From Clostridiales bacterium (GTDB lineage Bacteria > Bacillota > Clostridia > Oscillospirales > Oscillospiraceae), in assembly GCA_019421975.1 (NCBI GenBank), contig JAHZEE010000011.1, positions 1-15,945 on the forward strand: a stretch of 15,945 bases of DNA, read 5' to 3'. Below, piece after piece: positions 2,470-15,244 of the stretch. Made by a program: the position numbers and the translations under genes. The first letter of the stretch is position 1, and every line of letters starts with the position of its first letter. The notes below the pieces were generated by a model. The model saw only the letters and a list, made by a program, of their open reading frames with translations, searched no databases and had not been told where the DNA came from.

Positions 2470-3372
2470 TCAAAAGCTGAGGGCATATACAGTTACGGTA
2501 CCTGTTACTTTTGTGGTTTTCTTGTCTATGTCTGCATAGACCTTGAGAAGTTCTAACGGGCAACTGACTGTGTCGGAGGTGTTAAGCAAAAGGGCCCTCT
2601 GGAGACCTGTTGTGCCATAATCGTTCCAACCATTGACAGGAATAAAAGAAACCAGCGCCGACGCACCGGTGGTGCTATCTGTGTGGGTTTTAGTGATTAC
2701 ACGCGCTCCATAAAAGCTTGAGCCGCTCATATAGCCGATTCCAATGTTTTCATATGAGGTCGTTTCCTGTGAGGAAAAGGTAAACATAAAATCTGTCAGC
2801 TCCACGAACACCATCCGGTATTGTCCCAGGTTTAGGCCGCTCAGATCATCCAGTTCATGTTTCCCGGTGGTTGAGTTAGTAAAGTTGATATTTTTTGTAT
2901 GAATCTTCTTAATGGTCAGTGCGCCCAGCGCGCTCAGGGCGGCCTCCACTGTTGCGGCACCCGTGCCGCCCTTGCTGATCGGGATGACGGGTAGACGGGC
3001 AGTATCCAGCGTCCCGCTTGTGATATCCCCCGCCGCATGGGTATGGCTTGTATTGGCCTTTCCGTTGAGCGCCGTCTGGGTTGCCGTGCTGATGGGCTTA
3101 TCTGCATCTGCCGTGTTGTCCACATTCCCAAGCCCCACCTGCGCCGCCGTCACCCCATGGGGATTGCTTTTATCGTTGATGTGATTTGACAAATTGGCCT
3201 GTACCCCACTTGCCGCGCCCGAGGCGTCCGCCCCCACATCTGCAGCTGTCAGCGTCACATCTGCGTTCAGCGGCTTTCCATTTACCGTCCGGGTGGCCGG
3301 TACCGCTGCGTTGGCTTTTGCAATTCCCTCATCAATCTGCTGGCCCGTATAGGCCGAATTGTAATCTGCCAT
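2470..3372 (-). CDS. Phage tail fibre / receptor-binding protein
   Basis: 300 residues. The N-terminal ~140 residues are typical tail-fibre repeat sequence: YTGQQIDEGIAKANAAV, then NPHGVTAAQVGLGNVDNT with ADADKPISTATQTALNGKA, then SHTHAAGDITSGTLDTARLP and ISKGGTGA. Such repeats form trimeric fibre shafts. The C-terminal ~150 residues (from about IKKIHTKNINF) are unlike the N-terminus, beta-rich and encoded by noticeably more AT-rich DNA; this is the probable receptor-binding head, which I cannot assign to a family. The start is supported by GAGGTGA upstream of ATG at 3372, and the preceding gene ends within that site. It is the last gene of the minus-strand block. A part of its N-terminal DNA is nearly repeated in the 6733-8571 fibre. 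Confidence 0.8.
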   Translation of the reverse strand: MADYNSAYTGQQIDEGIAKANAAVPATRTVNGKPLNADVTLTAADVGADASGAASGVQANLSNHINDKSNPHGVTAAQVGLGNVDNTADADKPISTATQTALNGKANTSHTHAAGDITSGTLDTARLPVIPISKGGTGAATVEAALSALGALTIKKIHTKNINFTNSTTGKHELDDLSGLNLGQYRMVFVELTDFMFTFSSQETTSYENIGIGYMSGSSFYGARVITKTHTDSTTGASALVSFIPVNGWNDYGTTGLQRALLLNTSDTVSCPLELLKVYADIDKKTTKVTGTVTVYALSF

Positions 3373-3378
3373 AATCTC

Positions 3379-3750
3379 TCACCTCTCACAAAGAAATACC
3401 GCACCGTCCGCTGTCACCAGCGCTGTGCTGTCGGACGGCACAAACAGATGGTTATCATTCCAGCTGCCATCCTCTGCCTGGGCAAACAGGCTGATGCGGT
3501 ATACTCCGTCTCCCTGCAGCAGGTAGTCGTCATATACCTCGAAACTCCGCTCCGTCTCAGCCGGTGTGGCAGAAAAGGACGCCACAAGCGCCCCCTTCCC
3601 CACGCCATATGCCTCCGCCCCTCTGGTCGCGCGGCACTCAAAGGTCTTGTAGGGGAGATCCGCCCGAAATTTCACCGTAATATGGTCATAGCCTGTTGTA
3701 CCGGACACCTTGTTCCCCGTCACCGAAAAAGTCAAGCCTGGCGCTGCCAT
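3379..3750 (-). CDS. Small phage structural protein, function unknown
   Basis: 123 residues, no signal peptide or membrane segment. The sequence looks beta-rich (LTFSVTGNKVSGTTGYDHITVKF, FEVYDDYLLQGDGVYRISLFAQ), consistent with a single Ig-like or fibronectin-like sandwich, but I cannot name the family. Its ATG (3748-3750) shares one base with the stop of the upstream gene (TAATG), so translation is probably coupled; a GGAG lies about 10 bases upstream. Its stop codon lies in the ribosome binding site of the terminal fibre gene. Position between an Ig-like protein and the fibre suggests a virion accessory or fibre-associated protein. Confidence 0.65.
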   Translation of the reverse strand: MAAPGLTFSVTGNKVSGTTGYDHITVKFRADLPYKTFECRATRGAEAYGVGKGALVASFSATPAETERSFEVYDDYLLQGDGVYRISLFAQAEDGSWNDNHLFVPSDSTALVTADGAVFLCER

Positions 3751-4412
3751 TATGCCACGCTCCAGGTCCCGATTTCATTCTTCACAAAAACCTTTACAAC
3801 CTTGGCGCCATCGCCGGGCGCCACCGTCTCCAGATCGGCGCCCGTGATGGTCACCTGGATGTTGGTCGCAGCTGGGTAGTTGCCCGCGCTGCCGCTGGTA
3901 TTGGCGGACCCCGCTGTGGTGGGAATCACCGTCCCCGCCTCCTGGGTCGAGCTGCTGGCCGGCACCACACAGACCTTGTACTCAGCAAATGCCACATCCG
4001 CTGTAAAGTTGATGACCGCCTGGTTGTATCCCGCAACCTTGGAGATCCGGCTTCTGTCTGGCCCCGTCACTGTGACCACCGGTACCACCGTGTTCAGGGT
4101 GATTGTATCCGTCACCGCCTCCGACTCATTGCCAACATCGTCGCGGACCTTGATTGAGACGGTCTTGAGTCCGTCGCCGGTGGGCAGCGTCACGCTCTTG
4201 GTGCTCGCATAGGTCTCCCAGGACGCTGCCGCCTCCTCTGCTACGCCGTCAATGCCCCAGATCTTCATCTGATAGCCCGTGGTGGCCTCGTCCGTCAGGC
4301 CGACCGTCAGCTTCACCGTTGTGGTCGTTGTATACAGCGCGCCGTCGTTGATCGCCAGGGTCAGTCCCTCTGGCGCCAGTGTGTCTAAAGTCAGGTTAAA
4401 ATAACTCGCCAT
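3750..4412 (-). CDS. Ig-like domain phage structural protein
   Basis: 220 residues. It opens with NLTLDTLAPEGLTLAIN and has repeated threonine-rich beta-strand sequence (VKLTVGLTDEATTGYQMKIWG, KTVSIKVRDDVGNESEAVTDTITLN) in the manner of bacterial Ig-like domains. A second, different module follows from about residue 110 (PVVTVTGPDRSRISKVAGYNQAVINF), ending in VKVFVKNEIGTWSVA. Such domains decorate phage tails and capsids and often bind carbohydrate weakly. A clear AAGGAG sits 8 bases before ATG at 4412. It lies between the 47-residue protein and the 123-residue protein, in one transcription unit. The specific virion location is inferred. Confidence 0.68.
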   Translation of the reverse strand: MASYFNLTLDTLAPEGLTLAINDGALYTTTTTVKLTVGLTDEATTGYQMKIWGIDGVAEEAAASWETYASTKSVTLPTGDGLKTVSIKVRDDVGNESEAVTDTITLNTVVPVVTVTGPDRSRISKVAGYNQAVINFTADVAFAEYKVCVVPASSSTQEAGTVIPTTAGSANTSGSAGNYPAATNIQVTITGADLETVAPGDGAKVVKVFVKNEIGTWSVA

Positions 4413-4414
4413 TC

Positions 4415-4558
4415 TTATCGCTCCTTTTGCATATCCAATTCTATATATACATATCCGCCGGGCCTTGTGTAGACGATTTTTTCCCCAAGCCGGATGCTCT
4501 TGATGCGCATTTCACCAGCAAATATGGCCGCAATTTCATCATTTGCAACCGCAATCAT
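4415..4558 (-). CDS. 47-residue phage protein
   Basis: A short complete reading frame: ATG at 4556-4558, TAA at 4415-4417, 47 residues, beginning MIAVANDEIAAIFAGEM and ending YIELDMQKER. It is preceded by an excellent ribosome binding site (AGGGGGTGA, which also contains the stop of the gene at 4564) and followed 2 bases later by the start of the Ig-like gene, whose own AAGGAG lies inside its last codons. The sequence IKSIRLGEKIVYTRPGGY resembles short 'surface-patch' proteins common near phage baseplates and fibres. Function unknown; the tight packing argues that it is translated. Confidence 0.72.
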   Translation of the reverse strand: MIAVANDEIAAIFAGEMRIKSIRLGEKIVYTRPGGYVYIELDMQKER

Positions 4559-4563
4559 TTCCG

Positions 4564-5130
4564 TCACCCCCTGATAAAATAGAGGGTTTTGGCGTCCTTT
4601 GTCGGCAGCGCCTCATACTCTGCCAAATCCAGACCCCGTATTGTGCTGATCTCGTCAGATGCAATGCCACCGCCGCTGCCGCCTCGGTTTGCCTCATTGA
4701 TGGCGCCTACCAGTGTGTCCTTGTGCTCCGTTGTCAAGCCGGCCATCTCGCCGATCATGCCCAGAATCTTCTGGTAGGCATCCGGAGTGGGGGCAGACGG
4801 TTCTGCTCCCATCGTTACCCCCTGCTGAATCACACCAAGGTCTGCCCAAATTGTGGGGAGCACAACGGTTTCGCCCTTTGTGCCGAACACCCCCACCTTC
4901 AGCCGTTTGTTGGGTTCTTTCATCACTTCCCACGGAACTTGGCACTGATTGGTCTCATCAAGCGGAATCGAAATGATCTCCGTCCCATTGGTAAATACGG
5001 CCACCCTATCAATTTCGTTCCAGTCCTCGTTAAATCCGAATTCCACGGAATAGACATTGGCAGAGCCGCTGGTCACCAGCTCCTTCTGCAAAACTTCTAA
5101 GTTGCTCTTATCTGCTTCCAGGATTAACAT
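4564..5130 (-). CDS. Phage baseplate / upper-fibre-like protein
   Basis: 188 residues. The N-terminal ~105 residues (VYSVEFGFNEDWNEIDRVAVF ... VPWEVMKEPNKRLKVGVFG ... TIWADLGVIQQGV) resemble the N-terminal beta-domain of baseplate-upper-type proteins that dock fibres in Gram-positive phages. A linker follows (EPSAPTPDAYQKILGMIGEMAGLT), then EHKDTLVGAINEANRGGSGGG, a common fibre/baseplate element, and the tail LDLAEYEALPTKDAKTLYFI, often seen at the C-terminus of such proteins. ATG at 5130 follows GAGGTGAT. A 7-bp hairpin (5148-5165) lies between the preceding SLH/subtilisin-like gene and this start. Family assignment is by eye. Confidence 0.68.
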   Translation of the reverse strand: MLILEADKSNLEVLQKELVTSGSANVYSVEFGFNEDWNEIDRVAVFTNGTEIISIPLDETNQCQVPWEVMKEPNKRLKVGVFGTKGETVVLPTIWADLGVIQQGVTMGAEPSAPTPDAYQKILGMIGEMAGLTTEHKDTLVGAINEANRGGSGGGIASDEISTIRGLDLAEYEALPTKDAKTLYFIRG

Positions 5131-5147
5131 ACCATCACCTCAAATCT

Positions 5148-5165
5148 GCTGCCCATCTGGGCAGC
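5148..5165. other. Intercistronic hairpin
   Basis: GCTGCCC (5148-5154), ATCT loop, GGGCAGC (5159-5165). On the plus strand it is followed by TCTTTTGTTTT, so it looks like a plus-strand terminator; on the minus strand, the direction of the genes here, it lies 17 bases after the subtilisin-like stop and just before the ribosome binding site of the next gene. It may stop antisense transcription or tune translation. Confidence 0.45.
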
Positions 5166-5181
5166 TCTTTTGTTTTGGAGG

Positions 5182-6225
5182 CTACCCCTCCAGTATTCGT
5201 TTTAGCACCACAGCCAGCTCCTGCCGCGTGACAGCGCCTTTCGGGTCAAACTTCTCGCCCTTCCCCTGCATCAGACCGTGTTCGACACAGTACTCCACCG
5301 CGTCCTTTGCCCAGTCTGCAATCAAATGCGCGTCTGTGAATGTCATCTGCTCCGCCTCCCTGTACTTTTCAATGTCGACCTCTCCCGGCTCCGGCAGCAC
5401 CACCAGCCCGAAGCCGGAGCAGCTGTCCCTTCCTTCCTCACCGATGTCCTCGCAGTGATCCCGGAAGAACTGTACCATCCCCGCACGGCTCAGCGGCCTG
5501 CCGGTCTTCTGAAGAAACAGCTCGTCCACCAGACACGCCATCCCGCACAGCCACGGCGCTGCATACGAGGTCCCCGCCAGAACCTCCCCGCGATCTGCTG
5601 GATCTGTCGCCCCAATGCTGACCGCCGGATTGCCCGGCGCGGCAAAATCGACCAGCTCCGTCTGACTTGTGTACCCTGCCGGAGACACTCTCGGCCCGCC
5701 GATCACCCTGTCCGAGCGCAGCACCTCCGCAGCGCCCACCCCGATGACCTCCTCCAATTCCAATATCCGGCTGTAACGCTTCTCTCCCTCGTTCCCCGCC
5801 GACCAGAACTCCTTCAGCCACGGCCGCGCCGCCAGAACTGCCCCGTGCTTCTCTCTGGCGGTCTTATCGTTCTCCACCCGGGAGAAAAAGACATTCGTGA
5901 TCTGCTTCTCGTCGATCACCGGCAGGCAGTCGTCAAAGAAATCCCAATGTTTCTGCCCGCCCTGCAGGCTGGTGTTGGTGGAGAAGGAATAGAGGGTTGC
6001 CTCTGGGGCCACCTGGAAAAAGGTCGCCGCCGTCTGGATGGCATGTTCACTGCCGGCGCGGTCCAGCACATGGACAATCTGACCGCCCGCATCATATTTG
6101 GCAGTGTCCACATTCTCCCCCGTGCCGGCCACGATCCCCGCGCCGTAATACCCTTTTTTGTGCCACTTCTCAACCCCGGTCACACGCCGCAGCCATGTGT
6201 TGCTGTCCAGTAAAATATTTTTCAT
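5182..6225 (-). CDS. Subtilisin-like (S8 fold) protein with C-terminal SLH repeat; probable pseudoprotease
   Basis: 347 residues from ATG at 6225, chosen because AGAGGTGA lies 5 bases upstream; a longer frame to 6285 would overlap the previous gene by 50 bases. S8 landmarks are in order: VTGVEKWHKKGYYGAGIVAG (about 15-34), TAATFFQVAPEATLYSF (65-81), SAGNEG (142-147, the oxyanion Asn), LVDFAAPGNP (191-200) and GTSYAAP (218-224, Ser220 in the nucleophile position). Where the catalytic Asp is expected (VAxDTG) the sequence reads VAGTG, with Gly34. His61 (SEHAIQTAA) could be the catalytic His, but the usual HGTH is absent. Residues 295-346 form one SLH repeat (FTDAHLIADWAKDAVEYC ... DPKGAVTRQELAVVLKRIL). 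No signal peptide. Between baseplate-type genes it is probably a virion part that binds the cell wall; residual protease activity cannot be excluded. Confidence 0.78.
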   Translation of the reverse strand: MKNILLDSNTWLRRVTGVEKWHKKGYYGAGIVAGTGENVDTAKYDAGGQIVHVLDRAGSEHAIQTAATFFQVAPEATLYSFSTNTSLQGGQKHWDFFDDCLPVIDEKQITNVFFSRVENDKTAREKHGAVLAARPWLKEFWSAGNEGEKRYSRILELEEVIGVGAAEVLRSDRVIGGPRVSPAGYTSQTELVDFAAPGNPAVSIGATDPADRGEVLAGTSYAAPWLCGMACLVDELFLQKTGRPLSRAGMVQFFRDHCEDIGEEGRDSCSGFGLVVLPEPGEVDIEKYREAEQMTFTDAHLIADWAKDAVEYCVEHGLMQGKGEKFDPKGAVTRQELAVVLKRILEG

Positions 6226-6235
6226 TGAATCACCT

Positions 6236-6733
6236 CTATGATACTGGTGCTGGGAATGGCGGTGGGGTGAATCCTTTAATTGCAATCGCCATATATGATG
6301 CTTCTCTAAAATTCAAATTAGTCCCGGCTGAGAATGTTACACTTCCATTGCTAAAGGTAGTTGTTAAATAAATCGCGGGGTCATCATCAGGGTATCTTGG
6401 ACAAATATAGGTGTTTGCAGCCATTCTATACTCAGATGGTGTTGCAATAATACTTTTTATGTGGTTTGAATAGTTACCTGGATTATTGCACTTAAATAGC
6501 ATGATACAATCTGGCAAAAAAGAAAAACCTGAAACTGTAAATACTTTTGTGCTGTCTGTAAGTTCTACAATTTTAGTTTCGATTTCTGCTCCTGTCTGAA
6601 TGTTTCCCACCAGATTTGCCATCTGCCGAAAAGGTGTATTTGCTGGTACCGTTACACCTTTTGCGGTAAGCTGTGTTTTCAGGGTATCTTTCGTACCTTG
6701 AAGATATTCCAACTTTTGCGCTGTCGTTCCCAT
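6236..6733 (-). CDS. Phage baseplate/fibre protein with AT-rich C-terminal domain
   Basis: 165 residues. The N-terminal ~50 residues (KLEYLQGTKDTLKTQL, GVTVPANTPFRQMANLVGNI) match a short module common in clostridial phage tail proteins, where it is followed by variable C-terminal domains. The rest (from about TKIVELTDSTKVFTVSGF, ending MAIAIKGFTPPPFPAPVS) is beta-rich, unrecognised, and encoded by clearly more AT-rich DNA than its neighbours, which suggests domain exchange. The ATG (6731-6733) shares a base with the stop of the large fibre gene (TGATG), with GAGGTGAT just upstream. Probably a small fibre or a cap bound to one. Confidence 0.68.
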   Translation of the reverse strand: MGTTAQKLEYLQGTKDTLKTQLTAKGVTVPANTPFRQMANLVGNIQTGAEIETKIVELTDSTKVFTVSGFSFLPDCIMLFKCNNPGNYSNHIKSIIATPSEYRMAANTYICPRYPDDDPAIYLTTTFSNGSVTFSAGTNLNFREASYMAIAIKGFTPPPFPAPVS

Positions 6734-8571
6734 CAGATCACCTCACCATTTATGGCATCCAGGGCACTGTTGATATCCCCCACGAGGCCGTCCACATAAG
6801 AAATACTCGCTTTCGCATTGAGCTGCGTCTGAAGATTGGAGGTGACACCGTCCAGATACCCCAGTTCTGTACTTGTCACCGCACTCACTGCCACCTTGCC
6901 GCTACCGTTGGAAATCAGCGCCCGGTTCGCCGTCAGGTTGCTGCTCACAATCGTGCTGGCACCGCCCGTCACAGTCGCCTGTTTCCCGTCCAGCGCTGTC
7001 TGGGCTGCCGTGCTGATTGGCTTATCTGCATCTGCCGTGTTGTCCACATTTCCCAGTCCCACCTGCGCCGCCGTCACCCCGTGGGGGTTATCGGTCCGGC
7101 CGGTATGTGCCGCAAGCGCGGTCTGCACCCTTGCGGCCTCTTCTGCCGCTGTACCCGCCGGATCATAATCCATAGCCGGCAGCTGGGCTGACGGGATCTT
7201 TCCGTCCGCTCCAAGCGCTGCCACGCCGCCCGCTGCGCCCTTCTCAGCCAGCGGAACGGAGGCTGCCCTGGCCGCCTCTGCCGCTGCACCGGCCACACTG
7301 TCCGCATAGGAGAATACATCCTCCGCCTTCCTCTGGGGATCATAGACGCCCGTCAGCATGTCTCCTGTCCCCGATCCGGCAGGGCCGGTGTCGCCCTTCT
7401 CGCCCTTGTCTCCCTTTTCACCCTTTGGGATGGCAAAATTCAAAACAGCGGCTGCCGTTGTGCCGGCGTTCGTCACCGAGGCTGCCGCACCCGGCTCCAG
7501 CGTGGTCACACTGCCCACCGCAACAGTCGCCGCTGCGCCGGGCTCGCCCTTTTCCCCCTGCTGGCCCTGCGCGCCGGTGGCGCCTCTTTCTCCCTTGTCT
7601 CCCTTTGGAATTCCAAACTGCAGCTTGGTCACACCGCCGCTTGTGGTCTTTGTGACCGTCGCATCCATCCCCTCTGCCAGCGTCTGGGCCTCCGCGGTCA
7701 TGTTCTCTATTGCGTGCTGCGCCGCCGCTGCATGCTGCGCCGCAGCCTGGGCCGAGACGGCCGCGCTGTCCGCCGCCGTCTTGCTCGCAGCCGCGCTCTC
7801 TGCCTGGGTCCTGGAAATCTGTGCTGCGGCCTGCGCCTCCGTCTGGGCCGAGACGGCCTGATCTGCCGAGGCCGCCGCCGCATCTTCGCTGGCCTCTGCC
7901 GCCGTCCGGGCCTCTGAGGCGCTCTGGGCTGCCTGGGCGGCAGCAGCTGCCCCCTGCCGGGCCGCCTGGGCATCCGCTGCGACCGCCTGCTGCACCAGCT
8001 CTGCCGCCGCCTGGGCCGTCTGCTCCACCGCACTCTGGGCCGCCTGGACGGCGTAGTCCTGGATGCCCTCTGTCAGAGCCTCCAGCTGCTCCGGCGTGAA
8101 ATCCTCGTATAAAAACGGATCGCCCTTGTCGCCCTTCAGGCTGGCGACCCACTCCGCCTCGGTGCCCGCAAATCCCAGCTTGACCGCAATGGCATAGGCG
8201 CTCAGATAGTAGCCCTTGAAGCAGGCCAGCGTATCCTGCGGCCGCAGCGTCTCCGCCACCCACCGCACATAGTCGTTGAGGTTCCGGTTGAACATCTGCA
8301 TACAGTTCTCATACCGGTCGTACTCCTCCTGCTCATAGCAGATCATGGCCTCCAGGTAGTACCGGTAGAGCCGGTCGTGGGGCGGCTGGACGATCAGCTC
8401 CGGATCCTGATCGTCGGCGCCGCCATACTGAACCACATCCTCCAGCGACAGCCGCAGCACATCCGTCTGCACCATGCCCTCTACTTCATTCACCCAGGCC
8501 GTCTTGACCTCGTCGGAGAAGCTGTTCTTTTTCAGGCCGTCTACAAAGCGCAGCAATTGTTTCAGTCTCAT
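6733..8571 (-). CDS. Collagen-like phage tail fibre with adaptor-like N-terminus
   Basis: 612 residues in distinct blocks. Residues 1-115 (LLRFVDGLKKNSFSDEVKTA, PPHDRLYRYYLEAMICYEQE) are helical and resemble head-tail-adaptor-type proteins coded after the capsid gene in clostridial phages. Residues about 120-160 (YLSAYAIAVKLGF, GDKGDPFLYEDFTPEQLEAL) form a fibre-entry motif. Then comes a very Ala/Gln-rich coiled-coil shaft (about 165-300), collagen-like Gly-X-Y runs (about 327-350 and 387-402), an Ala-rich linker, the fibre repeat NPHGVTAAQVGLGNVDNT, and a C-terminus with LTANRALISNGSGKV, TELGYLDGVTSNLQTQLNAK. ATG at 8571 has GAGGTGAAGAG upstream. It is the first gene after the major capsid protein. 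Probable role: a trimeric fibre anchored at the portal or neck; the adaptor reading is less sure than the fibre reading. Confidence 0.82.
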   Translation of the reverse strand: MRLKQLLRFVDGLKKNSFSDEVKTAWVNEVEGMVQTDVLRLSLEDVVQYGGADDQDPELIVQPPHDRLYRYYLEAMICYEQEEYDRYENCMQMFNRNLNDYVRWVAETLRPQDTLACFKGYYLSAYAIAVKLGFAGTEAEWVASLKGDKGDPFLYEDFTPEQLEALTEGIQDYAVQAAQSAVEQTAQAAAELVQQAVAADAQAARQGAAAAAQAAQSASEARTAAEASEDAAAASADQAVSAQTEAQAAAQISRTQAESAAASKTAADSAAVSAQAAAQHAAAAQHAIENMTAEAQTLAEGMDATVTKTTSGGVTKLQFGIPKGDKGERGATGAQGQQGEKGEPGAAATVAVGSVTTLEPGAAASVTNAGTTAAAVLNFAIPKGEKGDKGEKGDTGPAGSGTGDMLTGVYDPQRKAEDVFSYADSVAGAAAEAARAASVPLAEKGAAGGVAALGADGKIPSAQLPAMDYDPAGTAAEEAARVQTALAAHTGRTDNPHGVTAAQVGLGNVDNTADADKPISTAAQTALDGKQATVTGGASTIVSSNLTANRALISNGSGKVAVSAVTSTELGYLDGVTSNLQTQLNAKASISYVDGLVGDINSALDAINGEVI

Positions 8572-8642
8572 CTCTTCACCTCGTCACTGCCGGGACGCAG
8601 GCGCGCGCAGGGCGCACAGCTCCGGCTGCTTTACTTCGTTCC

Positions 8643-8677
8643 GTGGACGGGACGGAGACCCGCTCCGCCCCGTCCAC
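8643..8677 (-). other. Strong RNA hairpin directly after the capsid gene
   Basis: 8643-8657 pairs with 8663-8677 around a 5-base loop. On the minus-strand RNA all 15 positions pair, counting one G-U. It begins 4 bases after the capsid stop codon and lacks a U-tract, so it is more likely a 3' stabiliser or partial attenuator that raises capsid mRNA over the fibre genes than a full terminator. The rest of the 110-base gap 8572-8681 shows no gene. Confidence 0.6.
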
Positions 8678-8681
8678 TGTC

Positions 8682-9677
8682 TCACAGGGTTGCGCCCGCG
8701 TCCAGGCCGCTGGCAATCATGCCGCGGAAGTCCACGAAGCCGCCGCCGAAGCGCATGTAGCCCTTCCACTTGTTGGCGTCGTTGTCGGCCAGCTCCGAGC
8801 GGACCTCCAGCGGCACGCGCTCCTGCCAGACGGCCACATCGCCGGTCTGGTTGAAGCGGCTGTCCAGGATGATCCAGGGCGCGTCCAGGCCGCCGAGGAA
8901 GTCGTTGAGGTACGGCCAGACCAGCACCCGCCAGTTGCCGAACAGGTAGTTGTACTTGTTCTCCGTGCCCGGCTCCAGGTGGGAGGCGATGGCCGCAAAC
9001 ACCTCGTCCTTCAGCTCCGCCAGGTTGGGGATCAGGATGGTGTCCGGGCTCAGGCCCAGCGTCTCACCGTTGTCGCCCTTCATGTTCTGCATGGCCGTGG
9101 CCGCCTTGCCCAGGGCATCTTTGGAAAAGGCGTCGGTGTAGGCGTTTACAATGGTGTCGCCGGACACCTTCGCCTTGTGGGCGTTGGAGAACATGCAAAG
9201 CCCGTCGGCAGACTTGGCGCTGAAGGTCTGCCCCTTCATCTGGAAGCCCTCCTGCTGCTGCAGCGCCGTGCCCAGCAGCTGTGCAAAGAAGCGCTCCTGG
9301 GTGCGGTAGGCCGCCTGGATAAAGCCCTCCGGCTTTTTCTTGAAGTCCACCAGCTTGCCGTCGTCGACCATCTCGCGGGAGATGGAAAAGCTGGACTTCC
9401 AGGTGTAGTTGGGGATGGTCTGGAAGTAGCCCTCCTCAAAGCCGTTTGTGGGATAGGCGCCGTTTTCCGGCGTCAGCTCGAAGTCGTCCATGCCAGTCAG
9501 GCCGCCGTACCCCTCGGCCCAGTGGGTGGAGGGCCGCTTGATAAAGACCTCCTTGGCGATGGAGGCCTGTTCAAAGGCCTCGCCGCGCTTTTGCAGATAG
9601 GATGCAATGGGCGCCTGAATTTTACCGTAGAGGGCGTTGAGCCGCTCGCTGCCCTCGGAAAGAATGATATTGGGCAT
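8682..9677 (-). CDS. Phage major capsid protein, HK97-like
   Basis: 331 residues, with composition and length of an HK97-fold coat protein. Features typical of one capsid family: an N-terminal helical arm (MPNIILSEGSERLNALYGKI), the segment NYTWKSSFSISREMVDDGKL, a long helix (YRTQERFFAQLLGTALQQQ), PDTILIPNLAELKDEVFAAI, and a C-terminal beta segment WKGYMRFGGGFVDFRGMIAS close to the GFVDFR-type ending of these proteins. No prohead protease gene is visible and no long delta-domain precedes the body; the separate scaffold gene upstream may replace it. ATG at 9677 follows AGGAGGAA, which overlaps the end of the decoration-like gene. It is followed by a strong hairpin. Self-assembles into the icosahedral shell if functional. 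Confidence 0.8.
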   Translation of the reverse strand: MPNIILSEGSERLNALYGKIQAPIASYLQKRGEAFEQASIAKEVFIKRPSTHWAEGYGGLTGMDDFELTPENGAYPTNGFEEGYFQTIPNYTWKSSFSISREMVDDGKLVDFKKKPEGFIQAAYRTQERFFAQLLGTALQQQEGFQMKGQTFSAKSADGLCMFSNAHKAKVSGDTIVNAYTDAFSKDALGKAATAMQNMKGDNGETLGLSPDTILIPNLAELKDEVFAAIASHLEPGTENKYNYLFGNWRVLVWPYLNDFLGGLDAPWIILDSRFNQTGDVAVWQERVPLEVRSELADNDANKWKGYMRFGGGFVDFRGMIASGLDAGATL

Positions 9678-9692
9678 CTAAAGTTCCTCCTC

Positions 9693-10082
9693 TCAGAAAT
9701 GCACCCGGACACGGTCGCCGGCGGCCTTCCCCTCAAAGGAGACCACCTCCGCCACGCCGCTGGTGCTGGTCGCTGTGATCTTTTCCCCATTCGCGTCCAG
9801 CGTGTACCTTGTGCCGGCCGCAATCGAAGCGGACGCCTCCGCCAGCTCCGTCTCATAGAGCGTGTCTGCCGACACCCGGATGACCGGCACCATCTGGCCC
9901 GCCGCAGAGGCCTCCACCTCCTGCATGCAGATAAACTCCGGCATTGTAGCGCCGGAGGCGATGTTCAGCGTACCGCCGGAAAACGCCAGCGCGGTGCCGA
10001 CATGCAGGCGCTTGTCTGCCGCAACCGGCTGCAGCTCCCACGGATCGGGCTGTCCATCCAAATATTTTGCTGGGATCAACAT
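9693..10082 (-). CDS. Small phage head protein, decoration/stabilisation-like
   Basis: 129 residues from ATG at 10082, chosen because GGAAGGA lies just upstream; the longer open frame to 10223 only translates the palindromic repeats. The protein (MLIPAKYLDGQPDPWELQPV ... ALAFSGGTLNIASGATMPEF ... VPVIRVSADTLYE ... GVAEVVSFEGKAAGDRVRVHF) is beta-rich, with no cysteine-pair or membrane segment. A small beta-rich protein between scaffold and capsid is the usual place for a head decoration protein that clips the shell after expansion; the function is inferred from place and shape. Its TGA overlaps the capsid ribosome binding site. Confidence 0.62.
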   Translation of the reverse strand: MLIPAKYLDGQPDPWELQPVAADKRLHVGTALAFSGGTLNIASGATMPEFICMQEVEASAAGQMVPVIRVSADTLYETELAEASASIAAGTRYTLDANGEKITATSTSGVAEVVSFEGKAAGDRVRVHF

Positions 10083-10134
10083 AAAATCCTTCCTTTCTCC
10101 TTGACCAATTCTGTTTAAACTAAAACCGCACCCC

Positions 10135-10377
10135 AAAGGCTCCCCCTCGAGGGGGAGCTGGCGCGGCAAAGCCGCGTCTGAGAGGGGGAAAATCCCCCAT
10201 CCCGCTCCGCTTTTCCCCCACACACTGCCGCGGCACCTCTCAGTCCGCTTCGCGGCCAGCTCCCCTCAAGGGGAGCCTCCACACTGCGCGCACCCGAAGG
10301 CTCCCCCTCGAGGGGGAGCTGGCGCGGCGAAGCCGCGTCTGAGAGGGGGAAAATCCCCCATCCCTCCTCCGCGCTCC
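10135..10377. repeat. Three palindromic MITE-like half-units between head genes
   Basis: Part of the 371-base gap 10083-10453, which holds no credible gene. Two direct copies (about 10135-10203 and 10298-10364) carry the perfect palindrome CTCCCCCTCGAGGGGGAG, then GCGCGGC-AAGCCGCG, GTCTGAGAGGGGGAAAAT and CCCCCATCCC. Between them, in inverse orientation, 10234-10277 reads CACCTCTCAG, GTCCGCTTCGCGGCC-type sequence and AGCTCCCCTCAAGGGGAGCC, the same half-unit found near 13451-13493 and 13599-13641. Open frames through it are GC artefacts. It interrupts the head-gene operon, so the RNA would fold into large hairpins between the scaffold and head-protein genes. Confidence 0.85.
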
Positions 10378-10387
10378 CCCACACCGC

Positions 10388-10449
10388 CGCAGCCGACGCT
10401 CGGCCCGCAGCCGACGCTCGGCCCGCAGCCGGCGCCCGGCCCGCAGCCG
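10388..10449. repeat. 18-bp tandem repeat, about 3.4 copies
   Basis: CGCAGCCGACGCTCGGCC occurs twice exactly (10388-10405, 10406-10423), a third copy has two or so changes (10424-10441), and a partial fourth runs to 10449. It begins 4 bases past the scaffold stop codon (on the minus strand). In one minus-strand frame it would read GCGPSV repeats, but that frame has no ribosome binding site and runs into the palindromic repeats. Confidence 0.85.
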
Positions 10450-10453
10450 ATCC

Positions 10454-11200
10454 CTACCGGTACCACTTGTTGTACTCTCTCTGGATCTGCTGCGTCGACA
10501 GGCTTGGATCCATGGCCCGGTAGAGCTCCATCACTTCCTTCGGCACAGCGGGCAGTTCTCCCGTGCCGCCGCCCAGCGGCGCCAGATGGTCCTTGCTGGC
10601 CGCCGCACTCTGGGTGCGCTGCCGGGCCGCGCGCCGCTGGGCAAGCCTGCCGGCATTGGCCAGCTGAAACGCCTCCAGATAGGAGAGGTTGTTCTGCTGC
10701 ACATAGTTTGCAAACACAGCGCCCGTCTCTGACTTCAAAATGTCCTCCAGGCCGTGAATGCCCGGATCCAGCTTCCGGATCTGCGCCAGCTCATAGTCCA
10801 CCTGCTTTTGAAACTGTGCCTGCTGCGCCGGATCCGCCGCCGGCTCCGGGCTCTGCGTCTGCTCGGACGCCCCGTCCTTCTGCGCGCTGCGCGCATACCA
10901 CTGTTCAAAGTCCTCAAAGCTCTCCATCCGCCTGTTTTCGCGATAGGGGTCCTTCATGCCGACCCGCGCGAAAAACGACTGCTCCTGGGCCTTGAACTGC
11001 TCCTGCGCCTCCCGGCGCGCCTGCTCCGCGGCGGCGCGGATGGCCTGCTCCGTCTCCGGCGGCATGCCCTCCGGCGCTTCCGCCGGCGCCCGGCCCTCGT
11101 CCGAGGCCGGGCCCGCGGTCTCGGCCTCCACCTGCGCCGGGGCCGATCCGGCCTCCGGCCCCTCCAGGCTCAGCGCCTCAAAATAGTCCTGCTCTTCCAT
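10454..11200 (-). CDS. Phage capsid scaffold-like protein
   Basis: 248 residues, strongly charged and mostly predicted helical, with an acidic Ala/Pro/Glu-rich N-terminus (EEQDYFEALSLEGPEAGSAP), a coiled-coil region (ETEQAIRAAAEQARREAQEQF), QFQKQVDYELAQIRKLDPGI, and a C-terminal helical patch MDPSLSTQQIQREYNKWYR. Scaffolds of tailed phages have this build, with a basic C-terminal capsid-binding helix, and sit between portal and capsid genes, as here. ATG at 11200 is 6 bases after AAGGAG. A protease role is unsupported. If correct, it guides capsid assembly and is lost from the mature shell. Confidence 0.7.
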   Translation of the reverse strand: MEEQDYFEALSLEGPEAGSAPAQVEAETAGPASDEGRAPAEAPEGMPPETEQAIRAAAEQARREAQEQFKAQEQSFFARVGMKDPYRENRRMESFEDFEQWYARSAQKDGASEQTQSPEPAADPAQQAQFQKQVDYELAQIRKLDPGIHGLEDILKSETGAVFANYVQQNNLSYLEAFQLANAGRLAQRRAARQRTQSAAASKDHLAPLGGGTGELPAVPKEVMELYRAMDPSLSTQQIQREYNKWYR

Positions 11201-11221
11201 TCTGAACTCCTTTGGATGTCC

Positions 11222-11329
11222 TTATTTCTTCTGCTCCCGTCCGCCGCGCAGATCCGTCCCGCGGACAACCCGGTTGGGGGCCTCCGCCGTGCGGCTGTGC
11301 ACCGGCTGTACCCCCTGCGCGCGCGGCAT
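11222..11329 (-). CDS. Possible 35-residue phage protein
   Basis: Complete small frame, ATG at 11327-11329 to TAA at 11222-11224, starting 12 bases after the portal stop and ending 21 bases before the scaffold start. Product MPRAQGVQPVHSRTAEAPNR followed by VVRGTDLRGGREQKK: basic, no domain recognised. The frame fills most of the portal-scaffold gap, but no strong ribosome binding site precedes it, so it would rely on re-initiation after the portal gene. Moderate to low certainty. Confidence 0.45.
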   Translation of the reverse strand: MPRAQGVQPVHSRTAEAPNRVVRGTDLRGGREQKK

Positions 11330-11341
11330 GGGGGGGCGCTC

Positions 11342-13234
11342 TCAGGCCGGTTGGGGTGCGGCCGCCTGCGGCTCGGGCGGCTCCTGCTCCAGATACTCCC
11401 GCGTGGCCCCGGCGTCCGGATATCCCAGCCGCTCCAGCTTGGTCCAGTAGAGGATCAGGGTCTGCAGCTGGCTCGGATCGCCAAACGCGCCTGCCTGCAG
11501 GTTGGCCGCCGCCTCCTGCCACATGGCCTGCCGGTTCTGGCTCAAGGTCGCCGCCGTGTCGGTGGAGAACAGAAAATCGTCAATCCAGCGCCAGTTCCCG
11601 TCCTCGTCCCGCTCCAGGAAGTCCAGGCGGTTGAACTGGTCGTAGAGCCGTTCGCCGTGGATACCGGCGCGGACCACATCCCGCGGCTCGTCGCAGTAGG
11701 CGAGCTTGAACTTGAACAGGATCTCAAAGAGCCGGGCGTAGGCCGCGTTCTTCATCACCCGCTTGCTCTCCATCCGCCCCGCGGCCTGGGCCGCCGAAAA
11801 CTGCTTTGCCACCCCGGACTGCGCCGTCGTGTCCCGCCGGCCCTGGTAGCTGTCGGTGATCCCCAGCACCCGCCGCGACTCCTCGTAGACCTGGCTCAGA
11901 TACGCCATCTCATACTGCAGGTCGCCGGAGAACTGGTAGACATCGATCAGCTGCTTCTCCGCCGCGTTCTCCAGCACCCAGACGCTGCCGTCCTCCGACG
12001 AGGTGGGCATGTGGGTGCTGGCCGGCTTGGTGATGACGCTGCCGGCCCGGACCAGCCGCTCGATGATCTTCTGCTCCAAGCGGTTGACGGTGTTCTGCTG
12101 GTCGGCGATCTTGTCCACATCGCTCTCCCCCAGCAGCCGCCCAAATACCGAGACATTCTTCTGCAGCACCACCGGGAACACATCCGGCTTGTAGACCGGC
12201 ACCTCCTGCAGGGTGTAATAGATGGTCTGCCCCGTCTCGTCCGTCTCCTGGACCGCCTCCTCGCCCGGCTGGGGGAGATATCCCTCCGGCGCGGGCAGCA
12301 GAAGCAGCTGGGTCTGCTCCTGCCGGTCCTCAAAGCGCGTGCCGCCGCAGCTGGGGCAGACGCCCGGCACGGCGCTGCGGGCCTGTCCCTGGGGCGTGCC
12401 GTCATAGGTGGGCAGATCCAGCGCCTGGGCGTTTTCAAGCTGCGGCGCGCCGCACCTGCTGCAGTGCCGCAGCCGGCGGGCCTGGTAGTCCTCCAGATCC
12501 ACCAGCACGGTGTCCCCCACCCAGGAGAACATGCCGATGCCGCCCTGCCCATTGCGGTAGTAGACCACATACTGGGTCACAAGCTCGTCCGTCCCCGCCG
12601 TCTCGCCGCTGGAGCGCAGCGCCGGGTCGCGCTCCGGCTCGTCCGAGACATCCACGCCATAGCGCGCGCGGATAAAGGCCTTGCTCTGCGCCAGCTTCAG
12701 GCCGACGGCGTCCATGTCGTCGAGGCCCGTGTAGACCCCCTCCTGCGGCACCAGCTTCTTCGGATGCTGCACCGTGAGAACCGTCTCGCCCACCGTGTGC
12801 GGGGTTCTGCGCTGGTTGTCCCACTCCACCAGAAACAGCCCGCCGCCCTGAATGGGCACGGTCCGCTCCTGCATGTCGTTGAGCTCCTCCATGGGCAGCC
12901 GGTCCAGCTCATTTTTGAGCATGGCCTCAATGATGCGGGCCAGCGGCTCGTCCTTCTCGCGGCGGGCCGTCACCTTGGGCGCCGGAATGGTGGAGTCGAT
13001 CTCCGACTCGATGTTCTCTGCGACAATATTCCACACATGGCTGGTTTTGCGCGCCGCTCCGTCCGCGGCCCGGTCGTTGTCCGTGAGGGGCCGGAGCGTG
13101 TGCGCGCCGCGGTAGAGCCGCTCGCGCCGGTCCATCTTCTGCCGCTCCAGCTGCCAGGCCTCGTCGTGCTTCTCCATCCAGGCCTGCCACTTTCGCAGGC
13201 GGTTGATTCTCTTTTGCTTTCCCATCGCGGCCAT
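11342..13234 (-). CDS. Phage portal protein with zinc-ribbon-like insert
   Basis: 630 residues from ATG at 13234 (AAGGAG 3 bases upstream; ATG at 13225, giving MGKQKRINRLRKWQ, is equally possible). The open frame continues to 13522, but that part translates palindromic repeats and a terminator and is not coding. Portal-type features: a basic/aromatic N-terminus (RLRKWQAWMEKHDEAWQLER), HVWNIVAENIESEIDSTIPA, KNELDRLPMEELNDMQER, DVDKIADQQNTVNRLEQKII, the long helix YLSQVYEESRRVLGITDSYQ, and AQSGVAKQFSAAQAAGRMES. Between about residues 258 and 296 it has CSRC and CPSC, four cysteines spaced like a zinc ribbon. The end is Pro/Glu/Ala-rich (EQEPPEPQAAAPQPA). In known phages the portal is a dodecameric DNA channel at one capsid vertex and docks the terminase. 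No terminase gene precedes it here. Confidence 0.78.
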   Translation of the reverse strand: MAAMGKQKRINRLRKWQAWMEKHDEAWQLERQKMDRRERLYRGAHTLRPLTDNDRAADGAARKTSHVWNIVAENIESEIDSTIPAPKVTARREKDEPLARIIEAMLKNELDRLPMEELNDMQERTVPIQGGGLFLVEWDNQRRTPHTVGETVLTVQHPKKLVPQEGVYTGLDDMDAVGLKLAQSKAFIRARYGVDVSDEPERDPALRSSGETAGTDELVTQYVVYYRNGQGGIGMFSWVGDTVLVDLEDYQARRLRHCSRCGAPQLENAQALDLPTYDGTPQGQARSAVPGVCPSCGGTRFEDRQEQTQLLLLPAPEGYLPQPGEEAVQETDETGQTIYYTLQEVPVYKPDVFPVVLQKNVSVFGRLLGESDVDKIADQQNTVNRLEQKIIERLVRAGSVITKPASTHMPTSSEDGSVWVLENAAEKQLIDVYQFSGDLQYEMAYLSQVYEESRRVLGITDSYQGRRDTTAQSGVAKQFSAAQAAGRMESKRVMKNAAYARLFEILFKFKLAYCDEPRDVVRAGIHGERLYDQFNRLDFLERDEDGNWRWIDDFLFSTDTAATLSQNRQAMWQEAAANLQAGAFGDPSQLQTLILYWTKLERLGYPDAGATREYLEQEPPEPQAAAPQPA

Positions 13235-13308
13235 CCGCTCCTTTTCTCCGCTTTCTACCCCCCATTTTCCACGCATGGCCTGCCCGTTATCACACACTTT
13301 CCGGCAAA

Positions 13309-13336: not shown

Positions 13337-13380
13337 CAAATCGGGCGGCGTCTGCGCAGCGGCAGGGACCGCCAGACGGC

Positions 13381-13493
13381 CACCTCTCCGCCGCCTGCGG
13401 CGGCACCTCCCCTCCAGGGGAGGCATGCGAACTGCACAGCACCAAAAAAGGCTCCCCTTGAGGGGAGCTGGCCGCGAAGCGGACTGAGAGGTG
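13381..13493. repeat. MITE-like palindromic repeat, copy A
   Basis: 113 bases bounded by CACCTCTC and GAGAGGTG (8-base terminal inverted repeats). Inside: GCCGCCTGCGGCGGC hairpin, CCTCCCCTCCAGGGGAGG hairpin, a shared middle ACTGCACAGCACC plus A-run, then GGCTCCCCTTGAGGGGAGCT hairpin and GCCGCGAAGCGG. Most of the gap 13235-13689 is this repeat, copy B and the terminator; nothing codes there. Confidence 0.85.
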
Positions 13494-13519
13494 TCTGTTG
13501 TGGGATGGTGCAACGGAGC

Positions 13520-13641
13520 CACCTCTCCGTCATGGCTACCGCCATGCCACCTCCCCTCCAGGGGAGGCTATGCGGACTGCACAGCACCCAATAAAAAGGC
13601 TCCCCTTGAGGGGAGCTGTCGGCGGAGCCGACTGAGAGGTG
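13520..13641. repeat. MITE-like palindromic repeat, copy B
   Basis: 122 bases with the same ends (CACCTCTC ... GAGAGGTG) and the same middle (GGACTGCACAGCACCCA) as copies A and C. Its left internal hairpin reads TCATGGCTACCGCCATG, nearly the same as in copy C, while its right internal hairpin is GTCGGCGGAGCCGAC. The internal hairpins change between copies by compensating pairs, which points to selection or copying of a folded form. Confidence 0.85.
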
Positions 13642-13662
13642 TCACAGCACGCCCATAAAAGT

Positions 13663-13691
13663 AAGAGGCCCCTCGGCGTGAGGGACCTCCT
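13663..13691 (-). terminator. Terminator of XRE regulator 1
   Basis: Stem 13664-13674 with 13681-13691, loop about GGCGT, overlapping the stop codon of the gene starting at 14055. The minus-strand RNA runs on into TTACTTTTAT, and the plus strand into ATTTTTCT, so it may work both ways. Confidence 0.72.
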
Positions 13692-14055
13692 ATTTTTCTA
13701 ATAAATCTAATAAAATATGAACGAAAGTATGCAATTTCTGCGAATCCGTATGATCCAAAACATCATTTATGCGATTTAATTCATCAGGCGGAAGCTGCTT
13801 TAACTGATTGTAAAGCTTTCTGAGTGCAGCCGGATCCTCCACATTTGGATTAAAAAACTCATACGGCGTCACTTCAAAATAGTCACAGATATCTAAAAAA
13901 TTGCTCATATGCGGAAGTGCAATGCCAGCTACAATATTGTGGATGTAGCTATGGCCCTTCCCCAGCGCAAAACTCATTTCCCGCTCAGAGACATCTTTCT
14001 GCATTCTCAGTTCTGTAATACGGGTTCGGATAAACTGGGCCCCGCTCTTTTTCAT
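13690..14055 (-). CDS. XRE-family helix-turn-helix regulator 1
   Basis: 121 residues. The HTH domain covers about residues 8-68: IRTRITELRMQKDVSEREMS, FALGKGHSYIHNIVAGIALP (recognition-helix region), then NFLDICDYFEVTPYEFFNP, the usual Cro/C1-type ending. The rest is a helical tail (LRKLYNQLKQLPPDELNRIN ... HTFVHILLDLLEK), probably for dimerisation. No protease or ligand domain, so not a LexA/CI-type repressor. ATG at 14055 follows GGGGGCG; a TATAAT (minus strand, near 14083) lies upstream within an inverted repeat. It resembles the next two regulators in the motifs SER-(E/Q)-(M/L)S, GK and TP-x-E-(F/L)F. Target unknown. Confidence 0.85.
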   Translation of the reverse strand: MKKSGAQFIRTRITELRMQKDVSEREMSFALGKGHSYIHNIVAGIALPHMSNFLDICDYFEVTPYEFFNPNVEDPAALRKLYNQLKQLPPDELNRINDVLDHTDSQKLHTFVHILLDLLEK

Positions 14056-14064
14056 TTAAGCGCC

Positions 14065-14093
14065 CCCATTTCATACAAATATTATAAAATGGG
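14065..14093 (-). promoter_or_regulatory. Possible operator around the -10 of XRE regulator 1
   Basis: CCCATTT (14065-14071) and AAATGGG (14087-14093) form a 7-bp inverted repeat spaced by 15 bases that holds a TATAAT-like -10 on the minus strand. No convincing -35 was found. The surrounding 14056-14210 is AT-rich and noncoding. Confidence 0.35.
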
Positions 14094-14224
14094 TTATTAA
14101 AATATATTCTGAACAATTAAGTCGAATATAAATATTATTTATTGAAATATCTTAATTATTATGTTATTATGGCTTTGAAATAAAAACGATTGAAGCTCCT
14201 TTTTCTATTATGCTCCTTCCCGAA

Positions 14225-14344
14225 CACCTCTCCGTCATGGCTGCCGCCATGCCACCTCCCCTCCAGGGGAGGCTATGTGGACTGCACAGCACCCAAAAAA
14301 GCCTCCCCTTGAGGGGAGGTGCCGCCAAAGGCGGCGGAGAGGTG
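14225..14344. repeat. MITE-like palindromic repeat, copy C
   Basis: 120 bases, CACCTCTC ... GAGAGGTG ends, nearly identical to copy B through the left hairpin (TCATGGCTGCCGCCATG) and the middle; the right part reads GCCTCCCCTTGAGGGGAGGT then GCCGCCAAAGGCGGC. The gap 14056-14392 consists of AT-rich upstream DNA of XRE 1, this repeat and the XRE 2 terminator. Confidence 0.85.
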
Positions 14345-14367
14345 TTGCCGCACTCCCATAAAAAGCA

Positions 14368-14394
14368 AGAGGCCCCTCACACGAGGCGCCTCCT
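14368..14394 (-). terminator. Terminator of XRE regulator 2
   Basis: AGAGGCCCCTC and GAGGCGCCTCCT pair with one mismatch around ACAC; the minus-strand RNA goes into TTGCTTTTTAT and the plus strand into ATTTTTCT. It overlaps the stop of the gene ending at 14393 and closely matches the XRE 1 terminator in sequence. Confidence 0.7.
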
Positions 14395-14776
14395 ATTTTT
14401 CTAATAGATCTAACAAGGTTCGGAACTGTTCAGGTTTCAGAGTTTTCAGTATTTTTAGCAGTCTCTGCAAATCGCCGCCGCATAGGCGCGTAAATTCTAT
14501 CATAACTTCACGGGACAGATTTGAATTACTGATATCTGGATCAAAAAATTCTGCTGGTGTAACATCCAAATATGTACAAAGTAAAAAGAAATTTTCCATT
14601 TGTGGAAGCGCAACGCCAGAAGTAGCATTGTGAATAAACGCGGGAGACTTTCCCATGGCCAAACTCAGTTCTCGTTCCGAATAATGGTTGTCCATGCAAA
14701 GCCGAATTAAACGATCCCGGAACAGCTTTTTATAGGCTTCTGTAGAATCTACTTCTTCTCCCTCTTTTATACTCAA
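14393..14776 (-). CDS. XRE-family helix-turn-helix regulator 2
   Basis: 127 residues from a TTG start at 14776, supported by GGAGGGGA 4 bases upstream. HTH domain about 17-78: FRDRLIRLCMDNHYSERELS, LAMGKSPAFIHNATSGVALP, NFFLLCTYLDVTPAEFFDP. The C-terminal helices end in FRTLLDLLEK, like regulator 1 (LLDLLEK), so the two are close paralogs. It starts 39 bases after regulator 3, with the regulator 3 terminator hairpin between, so it may be read through from that operon or have its own weak promoter. No effector domain; partners unknown. Confidence 0.84.
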   Translation of the reverse strand: MSIKEGEEVDSTEAYKKLFRDRLIRLCMDNHYSERELSLAMGKSPAFIHNATSGVALPQMENFFLLCTYLDVTPAEFFDPDISNSNLSREVMIEFTRLCGGDLQRLLKILKTLKPEQFRTLLDLLEK

Positions 14777-14801
14777 ACGATCCCCTCCAATGATTCAAAA
14801 T

Positions 14802-14830
14802 AAGAGTCTCTCCACCTAAGAGGGACTCTT
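14802..14830 (-). terminator. Terminator of XRE regulator 3
   Basis: On the minus strand AAGAGTCCCTCT and GGAGAGACTCTT pair with a couple of mismatches, followed by ATTTTG. The hairpin takes in the last codons and TAG of regulator 3. The plus-strand side is followed by ATTTTTCTTT, so it could also stop plus-strand RNA. Confidence 0.62.
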
Positions 14831-15244
14831 ATTTTTCTTTCCATATTTATAATCATAGAGCATATCAACCAGTATATTCATTTGGTCAATTCCCATTTCA
14901 TCAATAATAGAGTTTAGCTTTTCCTTATGCTCTAAGTCCAAGTTGCTCAGATGATCGGTAAATTCATTTTCAATCAGTTTTTCTCGCCCAGGACCGTTTT
15001 CAGAAAACAGTTCCGACGGCGTAATATGAAAATACTCACAAATCTCTAATAGGGCATCGATATGTGGTAGAGACAGGCCCCTTGTAATCTGCCCAATATA
15101 TCCTCTGCTTTTCCCCAATTCAAAGCTCAATTGCCGCTCGGAAATATTTTTCTCATCTCGCAATTGATCAATTCTCTTCCGAAGCAATTCTGTGTAGTAA
15201 CGCTTATAGTCATATTCCACATACCTCACCCCGATTCTATCCAC
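14816..15244 (-). CDS. XRE-family helix-turn-helix regulator 3
   Basis: 142 residues from a GTG at 15244; internal GTG codons, for example the one giving MEYDYKRYYTELL, are alternatives because no start has a strong ribosome binding site. HTH about 16-80: LLRKRIDQLRDEKNISERQL, SFELGKSRGYIGQITRGLSL, LLEICEYFHITPSELFSENG. The tail (LEHKEKLNSIIDEMGIDQMN ... MLYDYKYGKKNKSPS) is helical and ends basic, and differs from regulators 1 and 2. It lies 27 bases after the RHH gene that ends at 15272 and is probably co-transcribed from the RHH promoter. Confidence 0.84.
   Translation of the reverse strand: MDRIGVRYVEYDYKRYYTELLRKRIDQLRDEKNISERQLSFELGKSRGYIGQITRGLSLPHIDALLEICEYFHITPSELFSENGPGREKLIENEFTDHLSNLDLEHKEKLNSIIDEMGIDQMNILVDMLYDYKYGKKNKSPS

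Follow-up and report, generated by a model that had tools for sequence, protein, structure and literature searches.

A phage-encoded subtilisin-like protein with a conserved Glu-His-Ser set and a single SLH repeat: a candidate wall-anchored lysis protease

The S8–SLH gene and its predicted catalytic residues

The stretch of DNA analysed here (the window: 15,945 nucleotides of contig JAHZEE010000011.1, assembly GCA_019421975.1, from a Clostridiales bacterium) contains, within a run of phage genes, a gene whose product, P0001, joins a subtilisin-like domain of peptidase family S8 to one S-layer homology (SLH) repeat. The gene starts 10 nt past the stop of the preceding gene, and its two main features are as follows.

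5182..6225, minus strand: S8–SLH protein P0001, 347 aa (open reading frame (ORF) and translation; Pfam S8 and SLH; AlphaFold2 model)
5212..5343, minus strand: single C-terminal SLH repeat, residues 295-338, with W305, G317..G321 and TRQE at 333-336 (PF00395, 44.3 bits against a cut-off of 20.8; motif conservation)

Pfam assigned Peptidase_S8 to P0001 with 26.4 bits (cut-off 21.8) and the AlphaFold2 model is a confident subtilisin fold, which together bear out the initial annotation of this gene as a phage-encoded subtilisin fold fused to an SLH repeat. S8 and SLH were the only domains found by Pfam, with no peptidoglycan-hydrolase domain. No pro-domain was found and, by inspection, no signal sequence was seen at the N-terminus. 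The subtilase-like domain of a tail sheath was rejected as the identity of P0001, no such match being listed in Pfam or PHROGs.

A homolog search with P0001 returned 95 rows. Of these, 93 were aligned with the query (94 rows), leaving out P0095 and P0096, which match in the C-terminal part only. The nearest homologs are 67-94% identical; none was found among 50,697 phage records. One homolog, A0A8S5T9E9 (68% identical over 346 columns), is entered as 'S-layer homology domain' [Siphoviridae sp. ct0Wl9], a name taken solely from the SLH repeat. The SLH hallmarks, namely the Trp, the Gly motif and TRxE, are all present in P0001, and the retention of the repeat among homologs, a check proposed with the initial annotation, is clear from W305 (90/94 rows) and R334 (92/94). 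The Glu37 column is missing in 3 of the 94 rows and the His61 column in 2. The catalytic-core codons are listed below with their subtilisin equivalents.

6115..6117, minus strand: Glu37, at the subtilisin Asp32 position (Glu in 91/91 ungapped rows; gapless alignment of distant relatives; profile alignment to BPN'; codon checked)
6043..6045, minus strand: His61, equivalent of His64 (92/92 ungapped rows)
5881..5883, minus strand: Ser115, equivalent of Ser125 (94/94 rows)
5791..5793, minus strand: Asn145, equivalent of the oxyanion-hole Asn155 (93/94 rows; His in P0030)
5566..5568, minus strand: Ser220, in GTSYAAP, equivalent of the nucleophile Ser221 (94/94 rows)

The initial annotation had put Gly34 at the VAxDTG position and taken the catalytic Asp to be missing. 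The Asp is indeed absent, but the acid is still there as Glu37, the register having been misread by three residues. Specifically, the family profile aligned to the subtilisin BPN' chain (E 4.5e-16) pairs Glu37 with Asp32, though with only moderate certainty at that point (about 0.5), so that this match is the weaker evidence. The register is settled by distant relatives, whose segments GYTGKGISIASLE, GYTGKGIRIANLE and GYTGKGIKIAEIE align gapless to GLTGKGVTVGIVD and GYTGKGMKVAILD from typical S8 proteins; therefore Glu37, and not Gly34, takes the Asp32 position. Gly34 as the equivalent would require a three-residue deletion, while the spacing from GYxG to the acid is gapless in distant members. 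In the row for 6ube, an engineered triad-acid mutant and one of five rows shown, the Thr-Gly pair is matched as in the initial annotation and the acid falls in a gap. The annotation's other suggestion, a relocated acid, was right in that another acidic residue is present, but Asp is exchanged for Glu in place. A lone mutation is rejected, since the homolog survey found Glu37 in every ungapped row.

The catalytic-core positions (the acid and the equivalents of His64, Ser125, Asn155 and Ser221) hardly vary even between homologs that share about 30% identity. A comparison of 18 divergent members leaves 24 of 340 positions unchanged, the five core positions among them; by a simple count that ignores kinship, the chance of drawing these five is about 1e-6. 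Glu was also found in 45/45 of the further homologs P0097-P0141, and Asp in 27/27 aligned S8 controls from bacterial genomes, made up of 24 kept by a motif filter from 30 listed S8 loci together with L013, L015 and L017. Five of the six filtered-out controls (L033, L035, L042, L049 and L056, the last two holding the same array; the sixth is L040) have the Asp motif. In addition, a class search hit 11 of 391 genomes, and ten of the loci (L077-L086; the eleventh is G037) all carry Asp, their motifs marking them as ordinary S8 proteins.

P0001 thus has the subtilisin fold and the oxyanion-hole Asn of family S8, with His and Ser in their usual order and Glu in the Asp column. Sedolisins (S53) likewise have the subtilisin fold and a Glu among their catalytic residues; in them, however, it is the His that gives way to Glu, and the acid is shifted (PMC11593635), whereas in our family His61 is invariant and Glu replaces Asp in place. 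Judged from these alignments, P0001 is best called S8-like with a Glu-His-Ser set in which Asp32 has been replaced in place.

One of the two readings offered in the initial annotation was a pseudoprotease, which would do no more than bind the wall or play a structural part. The canonical Asp is absent, a triad-less subtilase-like domain has been described in a phage tail sheath protein (PMC13118943), and one relative, from Tepidibacter, looks degenerate (see below). Nevertheless, His, Ser and Glu never vary, and Asn hardly does, among homologs as distant as about 30% identity, and the sole change, Asp to Glu, is fixed in most of the clade described below. Because a decayed enzyme is not expected to keep its core positions across homologs, we consider a pseudoprotease very improbable; on present evidence the alignments point to a conserved Glu-His-Ser site, presumably a catalytic one, rather than a decayed one.

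Origin of the Glu form and domain partners of the family

A tree of 104 catalytic domains was computed with the acid column removed (quick search, no bootstrap, several open forks; P0151 and the viral loci L058, L063, L068 and L073 left out). It contains a 72-row clade (SH-aLRT, a likelihood-ratio branch test, 99) with Glu in 66 rows and Asp in 6. Each of the 15 viral-contig rows included falls within this clade and none of the 27 control S8 proteins does; the control rows are not monophyletic, 4 being on the wrong side. The Glu/Asp label requires at least three changes on the tree, or one counting starred branches alone, and so few were reached in 0 of 500 shuffles. Since deeper members of the clade (L061, L066, L072, L074, P0142 and P0147) retain Asp, the exchange for Glu was probably fixed inside the clade. 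The clade is found largely in phage sequences, although phage origin is not proven for every row.

A profile of divergent members retrieved 112 proteins, 59 of them with an S8 domain. A peptidoglycan-hydrolase domain is also carried by 35 of these 59: Amidase_2 in 28 (one of which, P0142, has Asp), M15/VanY in four, a glucosaminidase in two and Amidase_3 in one. In several S8 proteins (L062, L069 and rows of the divergent-profile search) SLH is replaced by PF07833, the copper amine oxidase N-terminal domain, which may be their wall anchor.

A second alignment, run against IMG/VR, retrieved 19 loci, and in 18 of them a hydrolase is fused to S8 or lies at most 4 ORFs away, in a set biased to such loci because this alignment is rich in hydrolase fusions; in the only exception, L063, the sequence stops with the S8 gene. 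L059, L060, L066, L071, L073 and L074 have a holin, from one of three Pfam families, 1-2 ORFs from S8. The gene order is variable, the amidase coming first in L070; L019 has a holin next to its S8–Amidase_2 gene and, two genes upstream, a fibre gene, and in L020 and L003 an M15 gene adjoins the S8 gene. Beside the S8 and M15 genes of L020, positions 5641-8913 encode a protein of 1090 aa that combines a kinase domain with AAA_11/AAA_12 helicase domains and looks like a defence candidate. A Tepidibacter hydrothermalis plasmid with tail genes shows the order baseplate J, tail proteins, two small genes, S8–SLH, XhlA, holin and M15. A lysis-cassette location therefore holds for many S8 relatives, and the swapping of fusion for adjacency would be a classic sign that S8 and the hydrolases act jointly.

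The same linkage could speak for a processing protease, which would not cut a host surface protein but would activate or trim the peptidoglycan hydrolase it is paired with, or its own chain. Clostridial spores offer a precedent for such a role: there CspB activates SleC, a cortex hydrolase (PMC3567191). On the other hand, the partner hydrolases are of several unrelated kinds and the stand-alone S8–SLH proteins retain a wall anchor of their own, needless for processing. We regard a processing function as rather improbable.

Bacterial genomes seldom carry the family (3/400 at E 1e-20, one family). Against the phage records, P0105 had 1470 matches, of which the 30 listed start at residue 196 or later, mainly in the amidase part; L060 had 10, including nine from Staphylococcus phages (about 25%), and L072 had none. 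A further locus, L005, matched weakly.

The phage run of the window

The S8–SLH gene lies in a same-strand run with the order portal, phrog_35275, phrog_24113, major capsid, collagen-like fibre, fibre-type protein, S8–SLH, tail-tip-motif protein, phrog_10898, phrog_17347-like protein and fibre. Its main members are listed below.

11342..13237, minus strand: P22-like portal protein (PF16510, 2.7e-08)
8682..9677, minus strand: major capsid protein (PF25209, 2.2e-19; phrog_371)
6733..8571, minus strand: collagen-like tail-fibre protein, 612 aa (PHROG tail fibre, 3.9e-13; N-terminal 166 residues 50% to L087)
6236..6733, minus strand: fibre-type protein, 165 aa, upstream of S8–SLH (weak PHROG tail-fibre matches)
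4564..5130, minus strand: downstream protein with a phage tail tip motif, 188 aa (PF24243 Phage_tail_C, 2.2e-08)
3750..4412, minus strand: phrog_10898 protein, 220 aa (7.4e-81)

This position, after the collagen-like fibre and before phrog_10898, would suit a virion-borne penetration enzyme, that is, an active protease of the tail or fibre complex clearing surface protein at adsorption. In addition, the ORFs preceding S8 in L059, L060, L067 and L069 resemble, by reading alone, tail or fibre genes. However, no tail-attachment domain was found in P0001 by the Pfam scan, the amidase fusions and neighbouring holins favour lysis, and in tailed phages lysis genes commonly come after fibre genes. A virion-borne enzyme is thus an unlikely reading, though the least unlikely of the alternatives, and a function in lysis is the more likely timing. 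The virion adhesion part of the initial annotation is possible but second best, given the many relatives that cluster with holins and peptidoglycan hydrolases.

The contig L104 belongs to a relative of the window's phage (capsid proteins 50% identical) and encodes at 6554-7222, between a fibre gene and the phrog_10898 gene, a 222-aa protein with an SLH match of 56.8 bits and a CHAP match of 23.3 bits, the latter below the 26-bit cut-off. The S8–SLH gene occupies the corresponding interval of the window, but is separated from phrog_10898 by the 4564-5130 gene. The CHAP-like/SLH protein, possibly a second kind of SLH-bearing lysin, supports a lysin-like role for the S8–SLH protein. In L087, another relative, no S8 or SLH match was found.

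On the other strand, adjoining the phage run, lies a partial gene (3-2378) for a large acidic protein. The encoded part carries three SLH repeats and probably belongs to a surface protein of the host, and from this neighbour we infer that the host probably uses SLH-anchored surface proteins. The run itself (2470-13237) has portal, capsid and fibres, while terminase, tail tube and integrase were not recognised among the scanned proteins; a remnant, a minimal phage and a satellite are candidate readings. GC-rich palindromic elements are repeated between genes (10132-10450, 13380-13713 and 14225-14416), and repeats 703-705 nt apart flank two helix-turn-helix-type regulator genes, a spacing that suggests tandem duplication. 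Three consecutive XRE-type regulators, similar by eye, lie at 13690-15244 on the minus strand, the first of which was covered by the scan. Rfam and tRNA scans of the window gave no match.

Proposed role and comparison with known systems

Taken together, sequence and gene context lead us to favour, with moderate confidence, a wall-anchored phage protease of the lysis (or entry) equipment that would use Glu37, His61 and Ser220 to cut a surface protein shielding the peptidoglycan. The single SLH repeat would dock P0001, perhaps as a homotrimer, on the host secondary cell-wall polymer; the wall-held S8 domain would cut the host surface (S-layer type) protein, and this cleavage would let peptidoglycan hydrolases and progeny (or incoming DNA) pass.

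The closest precedent is LysBT1, an amidase–SLH endolysin of a Brevibacillus prophage (PMC12285257). It is a phage enzyme of the lysis type, as P0001 is proposed to be, and likewise ends in one SLH repeat bearing the Trp, the Gly motif and TRxE, although its catalytic domain is a Zn amidase and not a protease. LysBT1 trimerises and binds the wall through its single SLH, and a change of the Arg in its TRAE motif abolished SLH binding (PMC12285257). This precedent, together with the conserved motif, supports a putative wall adhesion of P0001 via SLH. LysBT1 lysed B. cereus only with ethylenediaminetetraacetate (EDTA), which its authors blame on the S-layer (PMC12285257), a gap that a wall-anchored protease would fill.

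Several observations weigh against this proposal. No holin, hydrolase or other lysis gene was recognised among the scanned proteins of the window, and without signal or pro-domain the export of P0001 must depend on a holin or on the virion. Besides the bias of the 19-locus set, the close family retrieved two loci from IMG/VR, L001 and L002, both at a contig start and neither (0/2) with a hydrolase among the neighbours scanned, so that the pooled count is 18/21; in L001 the S8–SLH gene (1340-2518) stands amid DNA-metabolism genes of a 54-kb viral contig, away from lysis genes. The linkage of the family to lysis genes is therefore not universal. In the Tepidibacter S8–SLH protein (L111, 11989-12990 of NZ_CP120734.1) two active-site positions look degenerate by eye; it is a probable true pseudoprotease within a textbook lysis cassette, and pseudoenzymes can accordingly arise in the family. 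Finally, subtilisin activity falls when the triad acid is removed (PMC7935941), and Glu in the triad may likewise give poor activity. One might speculate that a slower enzyme is of advantage for a protease made inside the cell without a pro-domain.

Compared with subtilisin BPN' and other S8 enzymes, P0001 shares the fold and the His, Ser, Asn and Ser125 equivalents, and differs by Glu for Asp32, by the lack of any pro-domain or signal seen, by its phage encoding and by SLH. Chromosomal S8 proteases with SLH (for example L013, L015 and L017) also unite both domains in one protein, but they are longer, with several SLH repeats by reading, have an Asp triad and lie outside the 72-row clade. CspB resembles the S8 family in being a subtilase partnered with a peptidoglycan hydrolase, and differs from P0001 as a spore protein with a pro-domain, a jellyroll insert and an Asp triad.

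No S8–endolysin fusion or Ser-His-Glu subtilase was found among the matches listed in the open-licence literature, an absence that counts as weak evidence. The string Ser-His-Glu in PMC10534430 is part of a peptide sequence instead of a triad. A survey of prokaryotic serine proteases describes one SLH-bearing subtilisin; its main text contains neither the word 'amidase' nor the word 'phage' (PMC2605481).

More broadly, we tentatively propose that phages of S-layer-bearing Firmicutes may carry a dedicated class of lysis proteases whose Glu-His-Ser triad would be functional and make a third type of triad for the subtilisin fold; these proteases would strip the protein layer while a partner hydrolase cuts the peptidoglycan, with S8–SLH, S8–amidase–SLH, S8–M15 and S8–glucosaminidase as its modules.

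Endolysins are usually viewed as peptidoglycan cutters. If the proposal is true, a protein-cutting class would be added to the phage lysis toolkit, and the pairing of protease and hydrolase would explain how phages exit from, or enter, S-layered cells. In addition, a naturally fixed exchange of Asp for Glu in a subtilase makes the strictness of the triad-acid constraint, a textbook question, testable on natural enzymes, because Asp-type relatives occur in the same clade.
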